This document shows, piece after piece, positions 9,374 through 32,954 of a stretch of 64,000 bases of DNA. How positions within the stretch are numbered: position 1 is the first letter of the stretch; each line of letters starts with the position of its first letter. The DNA comes from an uncultured Anaeroplasmataceae bacterium (lineage in GTDB: Bacteria; Bacillota_I; Bacilli_A; Acholeplasmatales; Anaeroplasmataceae), in NCBI GenBank assembly GCA_947629825.1, contig CANRFF010000006.1, positions 62,001 to 126,000 on the forward strand, given 5' to 3'. The position numbers were made by a program, and so were the translations under genes. Below the pieces are notes generated by a model. The model saw only the letters and a program-made list of their open reading frames with translations, had not been told where the DNA came from and searched no databases.

Positions 9374-10183
9374 ATGGAACAACCAAATCGTCCCGTCAAT
9401 GAAAATGAACATACCTATGATAACGGATTCCATCCGAAAGAGGTCGTTTTAAAGGAAAACTATCATTTTTACAATCGGAATTTTTTCTTTCGAATCGTTG
9501 AAAAAACGTTAATCTTTTTCACCAGAATCTGGCTACTCGTACCTCGTATGGTAATGGGAATCAAAATTATCGGCCGAAAAAACAAAAGAAAAGTAAAAGG
9601 CGCCATTATGATTTGCAATCACATTCATCAATTCGACGCTTTCTTTTTGGTGGCGACAACCTATTTTCAAAAAGTCTATGTCACAATGCTTCAAAGCAAT
9701 CTGGGATTCGGAATTGCCTCAAGATATATGCGTTATGCCGCTGCCGTACCCATTCCGACCGATCGAAGATTACTGAGAAAATTCAATGAGGAAACCAAAA
9801 AAACATTGGAACGAAAAGATAACATTCTGTTTTATCCCGAAGCCTCTTTGGTTCCGTTTTGCGATCATATCCGTCATTTTCTGCCCGGTGCGTTCCACTA
9901 TGCCGTTGTGAATCATGCTCCGATCATTCCTTGTTGTTATACCTTTCATCAACCGAAAGGCATTCGGAAATTATACCGAAAAAAACCGGTTCTTCATCTG
10001 ACCTTTTTGGATCCGTATGATCCGCCTTCTACCCAAAACCGCGCGAACGATATCGAAACGGCCACCAAAGAAGTACATGATCTGATAGAAAAATATTTTA
10101 TCGAACATAGCGATTATTACTATCAAAACGGACAAAAAATCCGAAATACATTTACAAAAGAAAAGAAAAATGATAACATATAA
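9374..10183 (+). CDS. 1-acyl-sn-glycerol-3-phosphate acyltransferase-like protein
   Basis: The 269-residue protein is of the PlsC/LPLAT family. A hydrophobic segment at ~45-62 (LIFFTRIWLLVPRMVMG) anchors it. CNHIHQFDAFFL carries the NHxxxxD catalytic motif, PIPTDRR matches the second block, and FYPEAS replaces the usual FPEGTRS in the third, so it is a divergent member. The family transfers acyl chains to lysophosphatidate at the inner membrane face. AAGGAGTG precedes ATG 9374. A fluoride riboswitch starts right after its stop codon, so the next gene is independently controlled. The divergent third motif leaves substrate identity open. Confidence 0.82.
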   Translation: MEQPNRPVNENEHTYDNGFHPKEVVLKENYHFYNRNFFFRIVEKTLIFFTRIWLLVPRMVMGIKIIGRKNKRKVKGAIMICNHIHQFDAFFLVATTYFQKVYVTMLQSNLGFGIASRYMRYAAAVPIPTDRRLLRKFNEETKKTLERKDNILFYPEASLVPFCDHIRHFLPGAFHYAVVNHAPIIPCCYTFHQPKGIRKLYRKKPVLHLTFLDPYDPPSTQNRANDIETATKEVHDLIEKYFIEHSDYYYQNGQKIRNTFTKEKKNDNI

Positions 10184-10280
10184 CCGGGAATGATGTTCTC
10201 CCCTGTAGAAATACTAAACCGCATTATGCTGATGACGTCTGCAACCTCTTGAGGTCAGTGCAGATATCATCAGTTTTTTT
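10184..10280 (+). promoter_or_regulatory. Fluoride (crcB-type) riboswitch with intrinsic terminator
   Basis: The leader shows the conserved blocks of the fluoride aptamer: GGGAATGATGTTCTCC (10186-10201; consensus GGxRAUGRxGUUCxCC), then AACCGC (10217-10222), then GCTGATGAC followed by TCTGC (10228-10242). The 3' aptamer strand CTGATGA also pairs with TCATCAG (10267-10273), and TCTGCA with TGCAGA, forming a long terminator with T7 at 10274-10280. This is the expected expression platform: fluoride binding holds the aptamer strand and prevents termination. The downstream gene is a cation/proton antiporter rather than crcB. Confidence 0.92.
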
Positions 10281-10301
10281 ATGAAAAAAGGAGTGAAAAA
10301 A

Positions 10302-11495
10302 ATGCTTTTCAGTTTGGGTTGGATTTTATTATTCGGTTTTTTGATCGGTTGGTTATTGAATCAAATCAAAATTCCCGGATTGGTGGGAATGATTTTGATC
10401 GGACTTTTGTTCGGACCCTATTGTCTTTCCTGGATCGATTCTTCTTTACTTGAAATATCCGGCATTCTTCGGCAAATCGCTTTGATTGTGATTTTAACGA
10501 GAAGCGGACTCAATCTGGATATTTCGTCACTAAAAAAAATCGGACGTCCGGCGATTTTGATGAGTTTCCTGCCAGCCACCTTTGAAATTGTCGGGGTCGG
10601 AATCTTCGGAACGTATTTATTACATTTATCCTGGGCGGAAAGTTTTTTATTGGGAAGTGTTCTTGCGGCGGTTTCTCCCGCCATTGTTTCTCCGCGAATG
10701 ATTCGTCTGATTGAAAATGGTTACGGAAAAACCCATGAAGTCCCGAAATTGATTTTAGCCGGTTCTTCTATCGACGATATTTACGCCATTGTTTTGTTTT
10801 ATGCCTTCTTGGGACTGGTACAAACCGAACACCTCCAATGGAACACCTTTTTACAGATTCCTTCTTCCATTGTGTTGGGAATCGGATGCGGTTGTGTTGT
10901 CGGATTTTTCCTTGTTCTTTTATTCCGTTTGAAAAAAATTCACATTTACGTCGAAATTTTAATTCTGCTGGCCACTTCCTTTTTATTGGTAGGAATAGAG
11001 GACTTGGTCAAACCTTGGATTTCCGTTTCTTCCCTATTGGCCATTTTAGTAGTCGCAATCATTCTTTTATGGAAACAGCCACTCAAAGCCAAAGAAATCG
11101 AAAAAGGATATTCGGGACTTTGGAAAGGATTTGAGATTCTTCTTTTCGTCCTTGTCGGCGCAACAGTGGATTATCATTATATTCTCAATAGCGGAGGGAT
11201 GGTTTTGGCCGTATTGGGAATCGGTTTGATTTTTCGTATGATCGGAGTTCTTTTTTGTTTGATTGCCACTTCCCTTTCGGCAAAAGAACGGTTATTTACC
11301 ATGATTGCCTATTTACCGAAAGCCACCGTACAGGCTTCCATCGGCGGAATTGCCTTATCTTTGGGATTATCTTGCGGAAATGTCGTGTTAACCGTATCGA
11401 TATTATCCATATTGATCACCGCTCCGATCGGAGCGCTGTTGATTGATCTTTTTGGAAAAAAATTATTGAAAAAAGAGGATTTGGATATTCAGTAA
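10302..11495 (+). CDS. Fluoride-regulated cation/proton antiporter (CPA family)
   Basis: A 397-residue polytopic membrane protein with about 11-12 hydrophobic helices across its whole length. GLVGMILIGLLFGPYCL, RSGLNLD and GSVLAAVSPAIVSPRMI match the Na+/H+ exchanger domain, and SSIDDIYAIVLFY contains the paired acidic residues of electrogenic CPA-type antiporters. ATG 10302 with AAAAGGAG upstream is preferred to the ATG at 10281 abutting the terminator T-tract. The fluoride riboswitch in front implies induction by fluoride. A direct fluoride role versus repair of pH or ion balance after fluoride/HF entry cannot be separated from sequence. Confidence 0.88.
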   Translation: MLFSLGWILLFGFLIGWLLNQIKIPGLVGMILIGLLFGPYCLSWIDSSLLEISGILRQIALIVILTRSGLNLDISSLKKIGRPAILMSFLPATFEIVGVGIFGTYLLHLSWAESFLLGSVLAAVSPAIVSPRMIRLIENGYGKTHEVPKLILAGSSIDDIYAIVLFYAFLGLVQTEHLQWNTFLQIPSSIVLGIGCGCVVGFFLVLLFRLKKIHIYVEILILLATSFLLVGIEDLVKPWISVSSLLAILVVAIILLWKQPLKAKEIEKGYSGLWKGFEILLFVLVGATVDYHYILNSGGMVLAVLGIGLIFRMIGVLFCLIATSLSAKERLFTMIAYLPKATVQASIGGIALSLGLSCGNVVLTVSILSILITAPIGALLIDLFGKKLLKKEDLDIQ

Positions 11496-11643
11496 AATCG
11501 GTTTCTTTCGTTTTCGAAATTCGTTTTTTCGATCTTTCACCGGATTTCATCTTTTTCCTTTGATTTCTTGCCGGATAATTTGAAAAAGAGACTTGTCAAA
11601 AGAAACAGAAAGTTCTAAAATAATCTTATTGGGGGATTTTATA

Positions 11644-12924
11644 ATGCTTTGCTACGGAATTGTGATTATTACCATTATTTTGATTATCGCATCGATTTTA
11701 TTTTTTCCGACGATAAAAATTTCGCATTTTCGTTTGGGAACCTACTGGATCATCGCCGTCATTGCCGCACTGCTTCTGATTCTATTCCGGTGTGTTTCTT
11801 GGGAAAATATCATCGAATCTTTTACTTCCGATACCTCTATGAATCCGTTGAAAATATTGATTCTTTTTATTACGATGACCATTTTATCGATTTTTTTGGA
11901 CGAGGTCGGTTTTTTTAATTTTATCGCCTGTAAATCCACGAAATTATTCAAAACCAGTCAAATCAAATTATTTTTCGGATTTTATGCTTTGATTTCCCTT
12001 TTGACGATTTTCACTTCCAACGATATTATCATTCTGACCTTTACTCCGTTTATCTGTTACTATACCAAAAATACGAAAATCAATCCCATTCCGTATCTGG
12101 TCAGTGAATTTGTGGCGGCCAATACGTGGAGTATGTTGTTGATCATCGGAAATCCGACCAATATTTATCTGGCATCGGCGTTTCAACTGGATTTTATCAC
12201 CTATTTATCCCATATGATTTTACCGACACTCGGGGCTTCTATGGTTTCTCTTTTTCTTTTATGGATCATTTTCCGGCGAAAACTGAAAGAACCTCTGTCC
12301 CCGTTTGATGCGAAAACGGAACGGCCGAATCTTTTTTTGGTAATTCTCGGGCTTATTCATCTCATCGTTACGACGCTTTTGTTGGCCATCAGTTCTTATA
12401 TCCATCTGGAGATGTGGATCATCACGCTTTCTTTTTCTTGCAGTCTTTTGTTGATTTCTTTTGTTTATGCGTGGATTGGAAAAAAGAAAAAAAATTTTTT
12501 AATAAAAACATTCATCCGGGCTCCTTGGAATCTGATTCCTTTTATCCTTTCGATGTTTATCGTCGTCTTGTCATTGAATCAACAAGGATTCACTCAAAAA
12601 CTGCAGAACTTCTTGGAACAATTCCCTGTGATTTATTCTTACGGAATCGGAGGAGCCGTCGTTGCCAATTTAATCAATAACATTCCGATGAGTGTTTTGT
12701 TTTCTCATGTTACCTCTTCTTCCGTGGTTGCCACTTATGCCACCATCATCGCTTCGAATATCGCCGCATTTATGACCCCGATCGGAGCGCTCGCCGGAAT
12801 TATGTGGATGTCTTTATTAAAAACCTACGACATTCCGTACCGTTTCAAAAACTTTGTACTTTACGGAATGGGAATCGGAATTCCAACCATTCTTGTTTCT
12901 TTGTCATTTTTATATATTTTTTAA
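11644..12924 (+). CDS. ArsB/NhaD-type (SLC13 superfamily) transporter
   Basis: This 426-residue protein has about 11 transmembrane segments. FLDEVGFFNFIACK and the re-entrant motif TSNDIIILTFTPF in the first half, matched by NLINNIPMSVLFSHV in the second half, are the inverted-repeat signatures of the ion transporter superfamily (ArsB, NhaD, SLC13). NPTNIYLASAF is also typical. The substrate could be arsenite, Na+/H+ or an organic anion; no ars genes are nearby. ATG 11644 is chosen for the GGGGGA ribosome site. It lies 148 bp after the fluoride-controlled antiporter with no strong terminator between, so partial co-transcription is possible. Confidence 0.82.
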   Translation: MLCYGIVIITIILIIASILFFPTIKISHFRLGTYWIIAVIAALLLILFRCVSWENIIESFTSDTSMNPLKILILFITMTILSIFLDEVGFFNFIACKSTKLFKTSQIKLFFGFYALISLLTIFTSNDIIILTFTPFICYYTKNTKINPIPYLVSEFVAANTWSMLLIIGNPTNIYLASAFQLDFITYLSHMILPTLGASMVSLFLLWIIFRRKLKEPLSPFDAKTERPNLFLVILGLIHLIVTTLLLAISSYIHLEMWIITLSFSCSLLLISFVYAWIGKKKKNFLIKTFIRAPWNLIPFILSMFIVVLSLNQQGFTQKLQNFLEQFPVIYSYGIGGAVVANLINNIPMSVLFSHVTSSSVVATYATIIASNIAAFMTPIGALAGIMWMSLLKTYDIPYRFKNFVLYGMGIGIPTILVSLSFLYIF

Positions 12925-30972: not shown

Positions 30973-32091
30973 TTATCCTGCGATAACTTCTATAAATTTT
31001 TGTTCGATATATTCGAATAGGTCGTTTCCCAAAAAACGATAGACTTCGGCAAGATTAGACGGATCCTTTAAAATATGATTCGGATCGTACGCTTCGATGG
31101 CGGCGACTTCTTCCCATTCTTCGTCCGTATAAATAACATCATATACTTCTTGTAAAGTCGGACAATATCCCACAAAACTCGTATTTTCGTAAGCATGGTC
31201 AAATTCCAACAGATAATCGATAAACCGATACGCCAAATCTTCGTTGGTTACCGTGTAAGGCATCGCAATCCCATCAAAAAAGACGTTGTTGTGCATAACG
31301 GGAGCATAAATTCCGTATTGTTCGAGATTCTGCAATGCGCCGGCACTGATATCGGCATAATAAGCATCGAAAAAATCACCGGAATAAACCAAAGCCACAT
31401 CCAGATTTCCACTGGAAACCTTGATTTTCAAATCGTCGGTCCCCCATGCCGCAAAGGATGTGTTTTTCAATAAATTCATACACTCGTCGATTTTTGACCG
31501 ATCGGTCGTATTTAAAGAATACCCTTTGTATAATTCCGCTGCCGCAAGAGCGTCTCGGGAAGTATTGTACATTCCGACTTTAGCACCTTTCGGAAGAAGA
31601 TCCGGTTCGAATAAAACCGAAAAACCATATTTTAAAACCGCTTCTTCCACACCTGCTTTTCTTTTGGAATACATAATTCCCAAATCTCCCCAAAAATAAG
31701 GAATGTAATATCCTTTGTAGTCGGAACAATCCGAAGAATTCATCAAATCCGTCAATCCCGATACAAAAGCATCTTCCCGATAGTTTTGCAGGCGATCAAA
31801 ATCCAAAGGTAAAATCATTTCCTCTTCTTTCATCTGATCGATCATATAATCGGAAGGAATCACCAAATCATATTCGGCCATTTGATTTAAAATATTTTGA
31901 TACATTTGTTCATTCGAATCCACGGTGGCGATTTTGACGGTAACCTCATATTCTTCCTCAAAATCGGCAATCACTTCATCACTGATGTAATCTCCCCAAT
32001 TCAGAATCAATAAATCGGCTCCTTTTCCGCCACAGGAAGATAAAATGAAACACCCCAACAACAAAAGTATCATCGACCCAAACCGTTTCAT
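30973..32091 (-). CDS. potD: Spermidine/putrescine-binding lipoprotein PotD (operon 1)
   Basis: The 372-residue extracytoplasmic binding protein has a lipoprotein signal, MKRFGSMILLLLGCFILSSC, with the modified Cys at residue 20. LLILNWGDYISDEVIADFEE and YDLVIPSDYMID match PotD/PotF, as does YYIPYFWGDLGIMY. It captures polyamines for the PotABC importer. ATG 32091 overlaps the potC1 stop (ATGA); GGAGAAG lies just upstream. It is the last transport gene of operon 1. Confidence 0.94.
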   Translation of the reverse strand: MKRFGSMILLLLGCFILSSCGGKGADLLILNWGDYISDEVIADFEEEYEVTVKIATVDSNEQMYQNILNQMAEYDLVIPSDYMIDQMKEEEMILPLDFDRLQNYREDAFVSGLTDLMNSSDCSDYKGYYIPYFWGDLGIMYSKRKAGVEEAVLKYGFSVLFEPDLLPKGAKVGMYNTSRDALAAAELYKGYSLNTTDRSKIDECMNLLKNTSFAAWGTDDLKIKVSSGNLDVALVYSGDFFDAYYADISAGALQNLEQYGIYAPVMHNNVFFDGIAMPYTVTNEDLAYRFIDYLLEFDHAYENTSFVGYCPTLQEVYDVIYTDEEWEEVAAIEAYDPNHILKDPSNLAEVYRFLGNDLFEYIEQKFIEVIAG

Positions 32092-32954
32092 TTTCTTCTC
32101 CTGCTTTCTTTTTTGCTTTGGAAAATCTGATAAATAATAATCGCGGAAAAAGTAATCAATATCAAAAGAGTATTGTACGCACACGCTTGGTTCCACTGTC
32201 CGTTTTTCATCATCTTCAGATTTCCGTACAACCATGTTGAAAAATTCTGATTGCTTGAGCTGACAAAATAAGTAATGATAAAATCATCGATACTCATCGT
32301 AAATGCCAGTAAGGCCCCCGAAAAAATACCGGAACGGATATTCGGCAATATCACTTTCCACAAAGCACTTCTCGGAGGACATCCCAAATCCATAGCGGCA
32401 TCGAAGAGACCCTGATCCTTGTTTAATTTCGGTAAAACCGAAAGAACCACATACGGCGTGGAAAACAAGACATGAGCGATGAGCGTCGTGATTTCACTGT
32501 ACCGGGCAATCACATTGACATGAATAAAAATCGAAAACGTTTGAAAGACAATCAACAAAAGCACGGCCGTCACAATATCGGCATTGAGAATCGGAATGTT
32601 ATTCAAAATAATCATTCTCTTGCGCCATTTCGAATTCAAAGCGTTGATTCCCACCGCCGTGAGCGTCCCAAATAACGTGGAAATCACAGTCGAACACAAA
32701 GTGATTCGCAACGTAAACAAAATCGCCTGAAACAATTCACGATTATGGATCAACATTCCATACCAACGAAACGTAACCCCCGGCATTTCATATCCGCTCG
32801 GATGGGTGGAAATCGAAGTCAACGCAATCACGAGAATCGGGAAATAAGTCACTACCAATATGATTCCCAAAAAAATACCGACAAAAATTTTAAAACTCCA
32901 TTTTTGTACTCTCAACGAAAACGGTTCTGTCATCTGTACTTGTTTTTCCGTCAT
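32088..32954 (-). CDS. potC: Spermidine/putrescine ABC permease PotC (operon 1)
   Basis: The 288-residue permease has six membrane helices. FPILVIALTSIS follows helix 1, and the EAA-type loop AAMDLGCPPRSALWKVILPNIRSGIFSGALLAF is the contact to the PotA ATPase. SIDDFIITYFVSS is a PotC hallmark. ATG 32954 overlaps the potB1 stop by four bases. It would form the channel with PotB1. Confidence 0.94.
   Translation of the reverse strand: MTEKQVQMTEPFSLRVQKWSFKIFVGIFLGIILVVTYFPILVIALTSISTHPSGYEMPGVTFRWYGMLIHNRELFQAILFTLRITLCSTVISTLFGTLTAVGINALNSKWRKRMIILNNIPILNADIVTAVLLLIVFQTFSIFIHVNVIARYSEITTLIAHVLFSTPYVVLSVLPKLNKDQGLFDAAMDLGCPPRSALWKVILPNIRSGIFSGALLAFTMSIDDFIITYFVSSSNQNFSTWLYGNLKMMKNGQWNQACAYNTLLILITFSAIIIYQIFQSKKESRRRK

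Follow-up and report, generated by a model that had tools for sequence, protein, structure and literature searches.

The locus described here raises the question of why a fluoride riboswitch should precede a gene for a cation/proton antiporter, and what such a protein could do for a cell that takes up fluoride. The riboswitch class, also called the crcB motif, is reportedly due to Weinberg (2010) and Baker (2012). Our example was proposed in an initial annotation of a window of 64,000 nucleotides (the whole stretch of DNA analysed) from an uncultured gut bacterium of the Anaeroplasmataceae, and we followed it up computationally in the window, the host genome and related genomes.

The Infernal check suggested in that annotation bears out the riboswitch. 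On the forward strand, positions 10177–10248 match the Rfam model RF01734 (cmscan) with 44 bits against a gathering cut-off of 34, over the full length of the model (positions 1–64 of 64) and with an E-value of 6.4e-9 for the window. The element is therefore real, but it begins at 10177 and not at 10184, where it had been placed. It is the only one in the host assembly (1.42 Mb, 12 contigs, 96% complete). Among 21 family members, the aptamer pseudoknot and P3 covary, with 87% of the cells paired and two-sided changes at four pairs, against at most 52% paired cells in control alignments made by sliding the original; inner pseudoknot pairs are broken in some relatives. A chance match is excluded by the score, by this covariation and by the presence of the same element ahead of the orthologous gene in relatives. 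Judged on sequence, the identification of 10177–10248 as a fluoride riboswitch is confirmed, with fluoride binding and switching as predicted properties.

The surroundings of the aptamer fit a switch that acts on transcription. A consensus scan gave a promoter-like site, TTTACA-17-TAACAT (10151–10179, forward strand), whose 9 of 12 matches do not by themselves exceed the shuffle background; its −10 box ends 6 nt ahead of the aptamer's GGGAATGA, and many relatives have TATAAT or a similar box 6–10 nt 5′ of the aptamer. At 10228–10279, on the same strand, folding yields an intrinsic terminator (centroid hairpin, z −2.8), in which the aptamer's GCTGATGACGTCTGCA strand pairs with its downstream complement in a long hairpin that is followed by seven T and takes both P3 and the pseudoknot strand of the aptamer. 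Reuse of the aptamer's 3′ strand had been claimed before, and an equivalent terminator is found at 82 of 86 related loci. By this anatomy, the expression platform is inferred to compete with the aptamer as a transcriptional ON switch. The antiporter gene follows directly, which supports the earlier view that the riboswitch controls it: the mechanical open reading frame spans 10281–11495, and we chose the ATG at 10302, 54 nt beyond the riboswitch and preceded by a ribosome binding site read from the sequence (GGAG, 10290–10293, forward strand), which gives the 397 aa originally annotated.

The encoded protein (10302–11495, forward strand) carries a PF00999 domain (142 bits) on an NhaA-type fold. 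A profile of 25 orthologs found mammalian NHA2 (SLC9B2) as its best match in the PDB, with an E-value of 2.7e-69, while NapA and NhaP matched the same profile much more weakly (about 1e-7 to 1e-11); an AF2 model (pLDDT 85.6) likewise has NHA2 (7b4l) as its best Foldseek match by E-value (1.3e-16). The ion-site residues reported for NHA2, D277, D278, E214, R431, K459 and T461 in bison numbering (PMC8850199), correspond to D158, D159, E95, R312, K340 and T342, the first two being the paired Asp seen initially. All six are invariant in 52 aligned sequences (the window's and those of riboswitch-bearing relatives) and also in 20 antiporters taken as riboswitch-less, two of which (L097 and L130) were later found by Rfam to carry a riboswitch. 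The other two PF00999 genes in the host genome lack these NHA2 features by alignment, except for an Asp pair. We rejected the possibility of an NHA2 ortholog proper and call the protein NHA-like, because W456 of NHA2 is replaced by Tyr (Y337) and because it has no counterpart of the additional N-terminal helix TM −1 of NHA2, the match setting in only at residue 116. As far as its sequence goes, the antiporter is a bacterial protein related to the NHA2/SLC9B2 of animals, and cation/proton exchange is its predicted activity. More than 700 plasmids of Klebsiella and E. coli also match it; the matches listed are a 183-aa NHA-like antiporter fragment, 46% identical to residues 211–393 of the window's protein, and in the one plasmid that we opened (NZ_CP095654.1, L229:8013-8561) this fragment lies beside rmtB.

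The pairing recurs widely. The riboswitch is present in 28 of 55 Anaeroplasmataceae genomes, and the antiporter is the next gene at 26 of the 29 loci, that is, wherever a gene can be read; the other 25 antiporters are 49–62% identical to the window's, one of them being cut by a contig end. The remaining three loci comprise one where the contig ends shortly after the antiporter gene begins and two with decayed starts of that gene (L032 and L033, in two family genomes, of which G017 also has an intact pair, L008). In other genomes, the riboswitch precedes the antiporter in 62 of the 80 closest relatives, 60 found by a family-built RNA model and two more by Rfam (L097 and L130 again, which the family model scored too weakly). 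Across 395 genomes of the host's class, 85 of 92 gathering-level fluoride riboswitches lie directly upstream of the antiporter. Thus, the earlier description of antiporters as a minority partner holds across bacteria but not in this class, where they are nearly the only one. The distance between the two is 27–260 nt in all 90 adjacent pairs of the class. The riboswitch also lies directly upstream of distant full-length homologs in Acetoanaerobium, Cetobacterium, Ilyobacter and Picosynechococcus PCC 7002, which include Fusobacteria and one cyanobacterium. A CBS-domain gene separates the riboswitch from the antiporter in Peptoclostridium acidaminophilum (L231:2311-2875), and another genome (G109) has a similar gap of 718 nt.

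The genes upstream of the riboswitch differ between family loci, and no conserved neighbour of the pair was found among 60 loci compared, so that switch and antiporter appear to travel as a unit. The 18 of 80 close relatives in which the riboswitch is absent imply that the antiporter has a use outside fluoride control as well; they are scattered over the tree, which would demand many changes, and we therefore rejected a single origin of riboswitch control (we disregarded the position of NHA2 in this tree, a long-branch artefact). The window's own genus contains two antiporter lineages in different contexts, one with the window, L012 and L014 and the other with L006, L007, L009, L010 and L017, which suggests transfer of the cassette.

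A further question is whether these bacteria possess the exporters that fluoride riboswitches usually control. The search of the rest of the host genome that the initial annotation had called for detected neither gene: there was no PF00654 match to a CLC protein at an E-value of 0.001, and the only PF02537 (crcB) candidate, below the cut-off at 20.3 bits, is an ABC permease (32088–32954, reverse strand) and a false positive. These absences refer to an assembly that is 96% complete, and those based on metagenome-assembled genomes in general can be incomplete. No crcB above the cut-off was found in the 55 family genomes or in 50 antiporter genomes. In the class, 12 of 395 genomes have one, and one of these 12 also has the antiporter; a clear mutual exclusion must be discarded (Fisher p 0.11), since crcB is rare in the class anyway. 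One genome (G112), which has no antiporter, carries a fluoride riboswitch ahead of a two-gene crcB pair (L192:814-1498). CLC genes occur in 15 of the 55 family genomes, none of them in the window's genus, and in 26 of the 50 antiporter genomes, where signature motifs identify two genomes with a CLC-F-like protein and nine with a related GREGA/GEIVP type; no riboswitch was found ahead of CLC genes in these genomes. This latter subgroup (GTN..GREGA..GEIVP, L139-L154), close to the CLC-F signatures but not matching them, recurs in antiporter-bearing Clostridia. Within the set of 50, 22 of the 48 riboswitch-bearing genomes have no CLC of any kind. Thus, by these counts, about half of the genomes with the riboswitch–antiporter pair lack Fluc and any CLC.

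We propose, with a probability of roughly 0.6, that the riboswitch acts on transcription, is turned on by fluoride and has one target, an SLC9B/NHA-type cation/proton antiporter, which is predicted to restore pH and cation balance after the entry of HF. Without fluoride, the GCTGATGACGTCTGCA strand would pair downstream and form the terminator, and transcription would stop. Fluoride entering as HF would release H+ and F−, and F− together with Mg2+ would stabilise the pseudoknotted aptamer; as its anatomy and the known class suggest, the aptamer would then hold the GCTGATGACGTCTGCA strand, letting RNA polymerase read through so that the antiporter is made. In exchange for H+, the protein would carry a monovalent cation (Na+ in all likelihood) through the membrane, countering the cytoplasmic acidification and cation disturbance that HF brings. 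Cation/proton exchange is favoured by the conserved cation site and by NHA2 itself, which exchanges Na+ or Li+ for H+ with no K+ or Cl− transport seen (PMC8850199), and a 2024 review ranks Na+/H+ antiporters as the riboswitch-associated class next most common after the exporters, giving their role as pH homeostasis (PMC11139923). The antiporter is the only fluoride-riboswitch target in the host and in many relatives, in which Fluc/CrcB is undetected and CLC-F mostly so; it is probably, then, their main inducible fluoride defence. Some considerations count against this proposal: a role limited to pH balance is odd when most of these genomes have no detected exporter, electroneutral exchange has no fixed direction, so that H+ entry would add to the acidification, and 18 of the 80 close relatives lack the riboswitch.

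The same genomic evidence can be read in other ways. If the antiporter itself exported fluoride, coupled to H+ or to a cation, it would be a third exporter type in place of Fluc and CLC-F, and its position as sole riboswitch target in the host would be easily understood, as would the lack of crcB above the cut-off in all 50 antiporter and all 55 family genomes, the 22 of 48 riboswitch-bearing genomes without CLC and the CLC-F signature in only two. Halide transport has also been claimed in this protein family, in a disputed proposal that Nha1 of the fly cotransports H+ and Cl− (PMC9174904). However, every NHA2 cation-site residue is invariant and no change at the site is linked to the riboswitch, NHA2 shows no Cl− transport (PMC8850199), and the tendency of crcB and the antiporter to avoid each other falls short of significance within the class (1 of 12, p 0.11, crcB being present in just 12 of 395 genomes). 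We consider direct export unlikely, and we give no greater weight to its broader form, in which SLC9B-like antiporters are the primary fluoride-resistance determinant, possibly as a third exporter type, in Mollicutes, many Clostridia and some Fusobacteria. Slightly better placed, but still rather doubtful, is the idea that an exporter was missed, in the unassembled 4% of the genome or as a member of an unknown family, and that the antiporter is only accessory, as in C. difficile CD0656-7. The host assembly of 12 contigs at 96% completeness would allow this, and so would the antiporter genomes with a CLC-F signature protein (two) or the related GREGA/GEIVP type (nine), but an assembly gap cannot account for counts of 0 of 50 and 0 of 55, though an exporter of an unknown family may exist.

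Another possibility is that the exchanger admits H+, so that a smaller pH gradient would reduce the accumulation of HF and the cell would trade pH for less fluoride. Fluoride enters as HF and, as a weak acid, is trapped by an alkaline interior. The gradients of Na+ and H+ determine in which direction an NHA2-like 1:1 exchanger works, and fluoride-acclimated yeast tolerate a lower internal pH (PMC11139923). Growth at neutral pH would suffer from such a trade, and sequence cannot tell it from the restoration of pH and cation balance that we prefer; we regard it as improbable. The least likely arrangement by far is one in which the antiporter forms a single fluoride-response operon with the next gene, an ArsB/CitMHS-superfamily transporter (11644–12924, forward strand; PF03600 and PF02040, far below the NCBIfam ArsB family cut-offs). 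This gene lies 148 bp downstream on the same strand, as the initial annotation had noted for an ArsB/NhaD-type gene, and no terminator was found in between; however, a consensus scan places a promoter-like site ahead of it (11593-11621), and no homolog was found near the antiporter in the 80 relatives or in the wider family loci. Its suggested part in the same response is therefore rejected for want of conserved synteny, and the gene probably does not belong to any conserved fluoride response, although the two genes may share a transcript in this one genome. Nor were homologs of the acyltransferase and PopT-like neighbours found near the antiporter in the relatives compared; the latter gene encodes a PopT-like polyprenyl-phosphate transporter (PF04018, 12975-13922), in a family that includes the wall-less Anaeroplasma.

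That antiporters can be targets of fluoride riboswitches is already known, and the less expected part is their sole use in genomes without exporters. We did not find this use, in genomes without a detectable exporter, or the link to SLC9B described in the papers that we consulted. According to the 2024 review (PMC11139923), Fluc or CLC-F is present in more than 85% of the bacteria surveyed, and Tenericutes, Spirochetes and Fusobacteria tend to be among those that have neither. The riboswitch–antiporter pair occurs in relatives from two of these three groups, Tenericutes and Fusobacteria, which may well have a way of sensing and resisting fluoride that is missed in surveys of exporter genes. 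Were the antiporter indeed the primary determinant, bacteria thought to lack fluoride resistance genes, having neither Fluc nor CLC-F, would have one. The locus also offers a clean experimental case, in which a lone riboswitch and its one gene have no known exporter to compete with and NHA2 structures can guide the design of mutants. From it one would learn whether cation/proton exchange on its own is enough to protect a cell from fluoride, and whether halide transport, once claimed for fly Nha1, is within the reach of an SLC9B-type protein.

Compared with the described members of its class (RF01734, PMC2864571), the window's element is alike in its full-length match, its pseudoknot, the overlap of the terminator with the 3′ end of the aptamer and its transporter target, but the usual targets are crcB and eriC-F, while here it is the antiporter alone. 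The nearest precedent is C. difficile CD0656-7, a CLC protein followed by an NhaP-type antiporter (PMC11477304). Like the window's antiporter, CD0657 is under a fluoride riboswitch and has a proposed role in pH; unlike it, CD0657 follows a CLC protein as the second member of its operon, whereas ours stands alone with no known exporter detected. With the bacterial and archaeal antiporters NapA and NhaP, the protein has in common the NhaA-type fold and a paired acidic site, although the Glu and Thr found in both NHA2 and the window's antiporter are Pro and Glu in NapA. NHA2/SLC9B2 (7b4l, 7p1i) remains its best match by E-value in both sequence and fold, and the two share the DD motif, the E–R salt bridge and the K and T at the TM12 break; the window's protein differs in having Tyr for W456, in lacking TM −1, and in being bacterial and, by prediction, controlled by fluoride.
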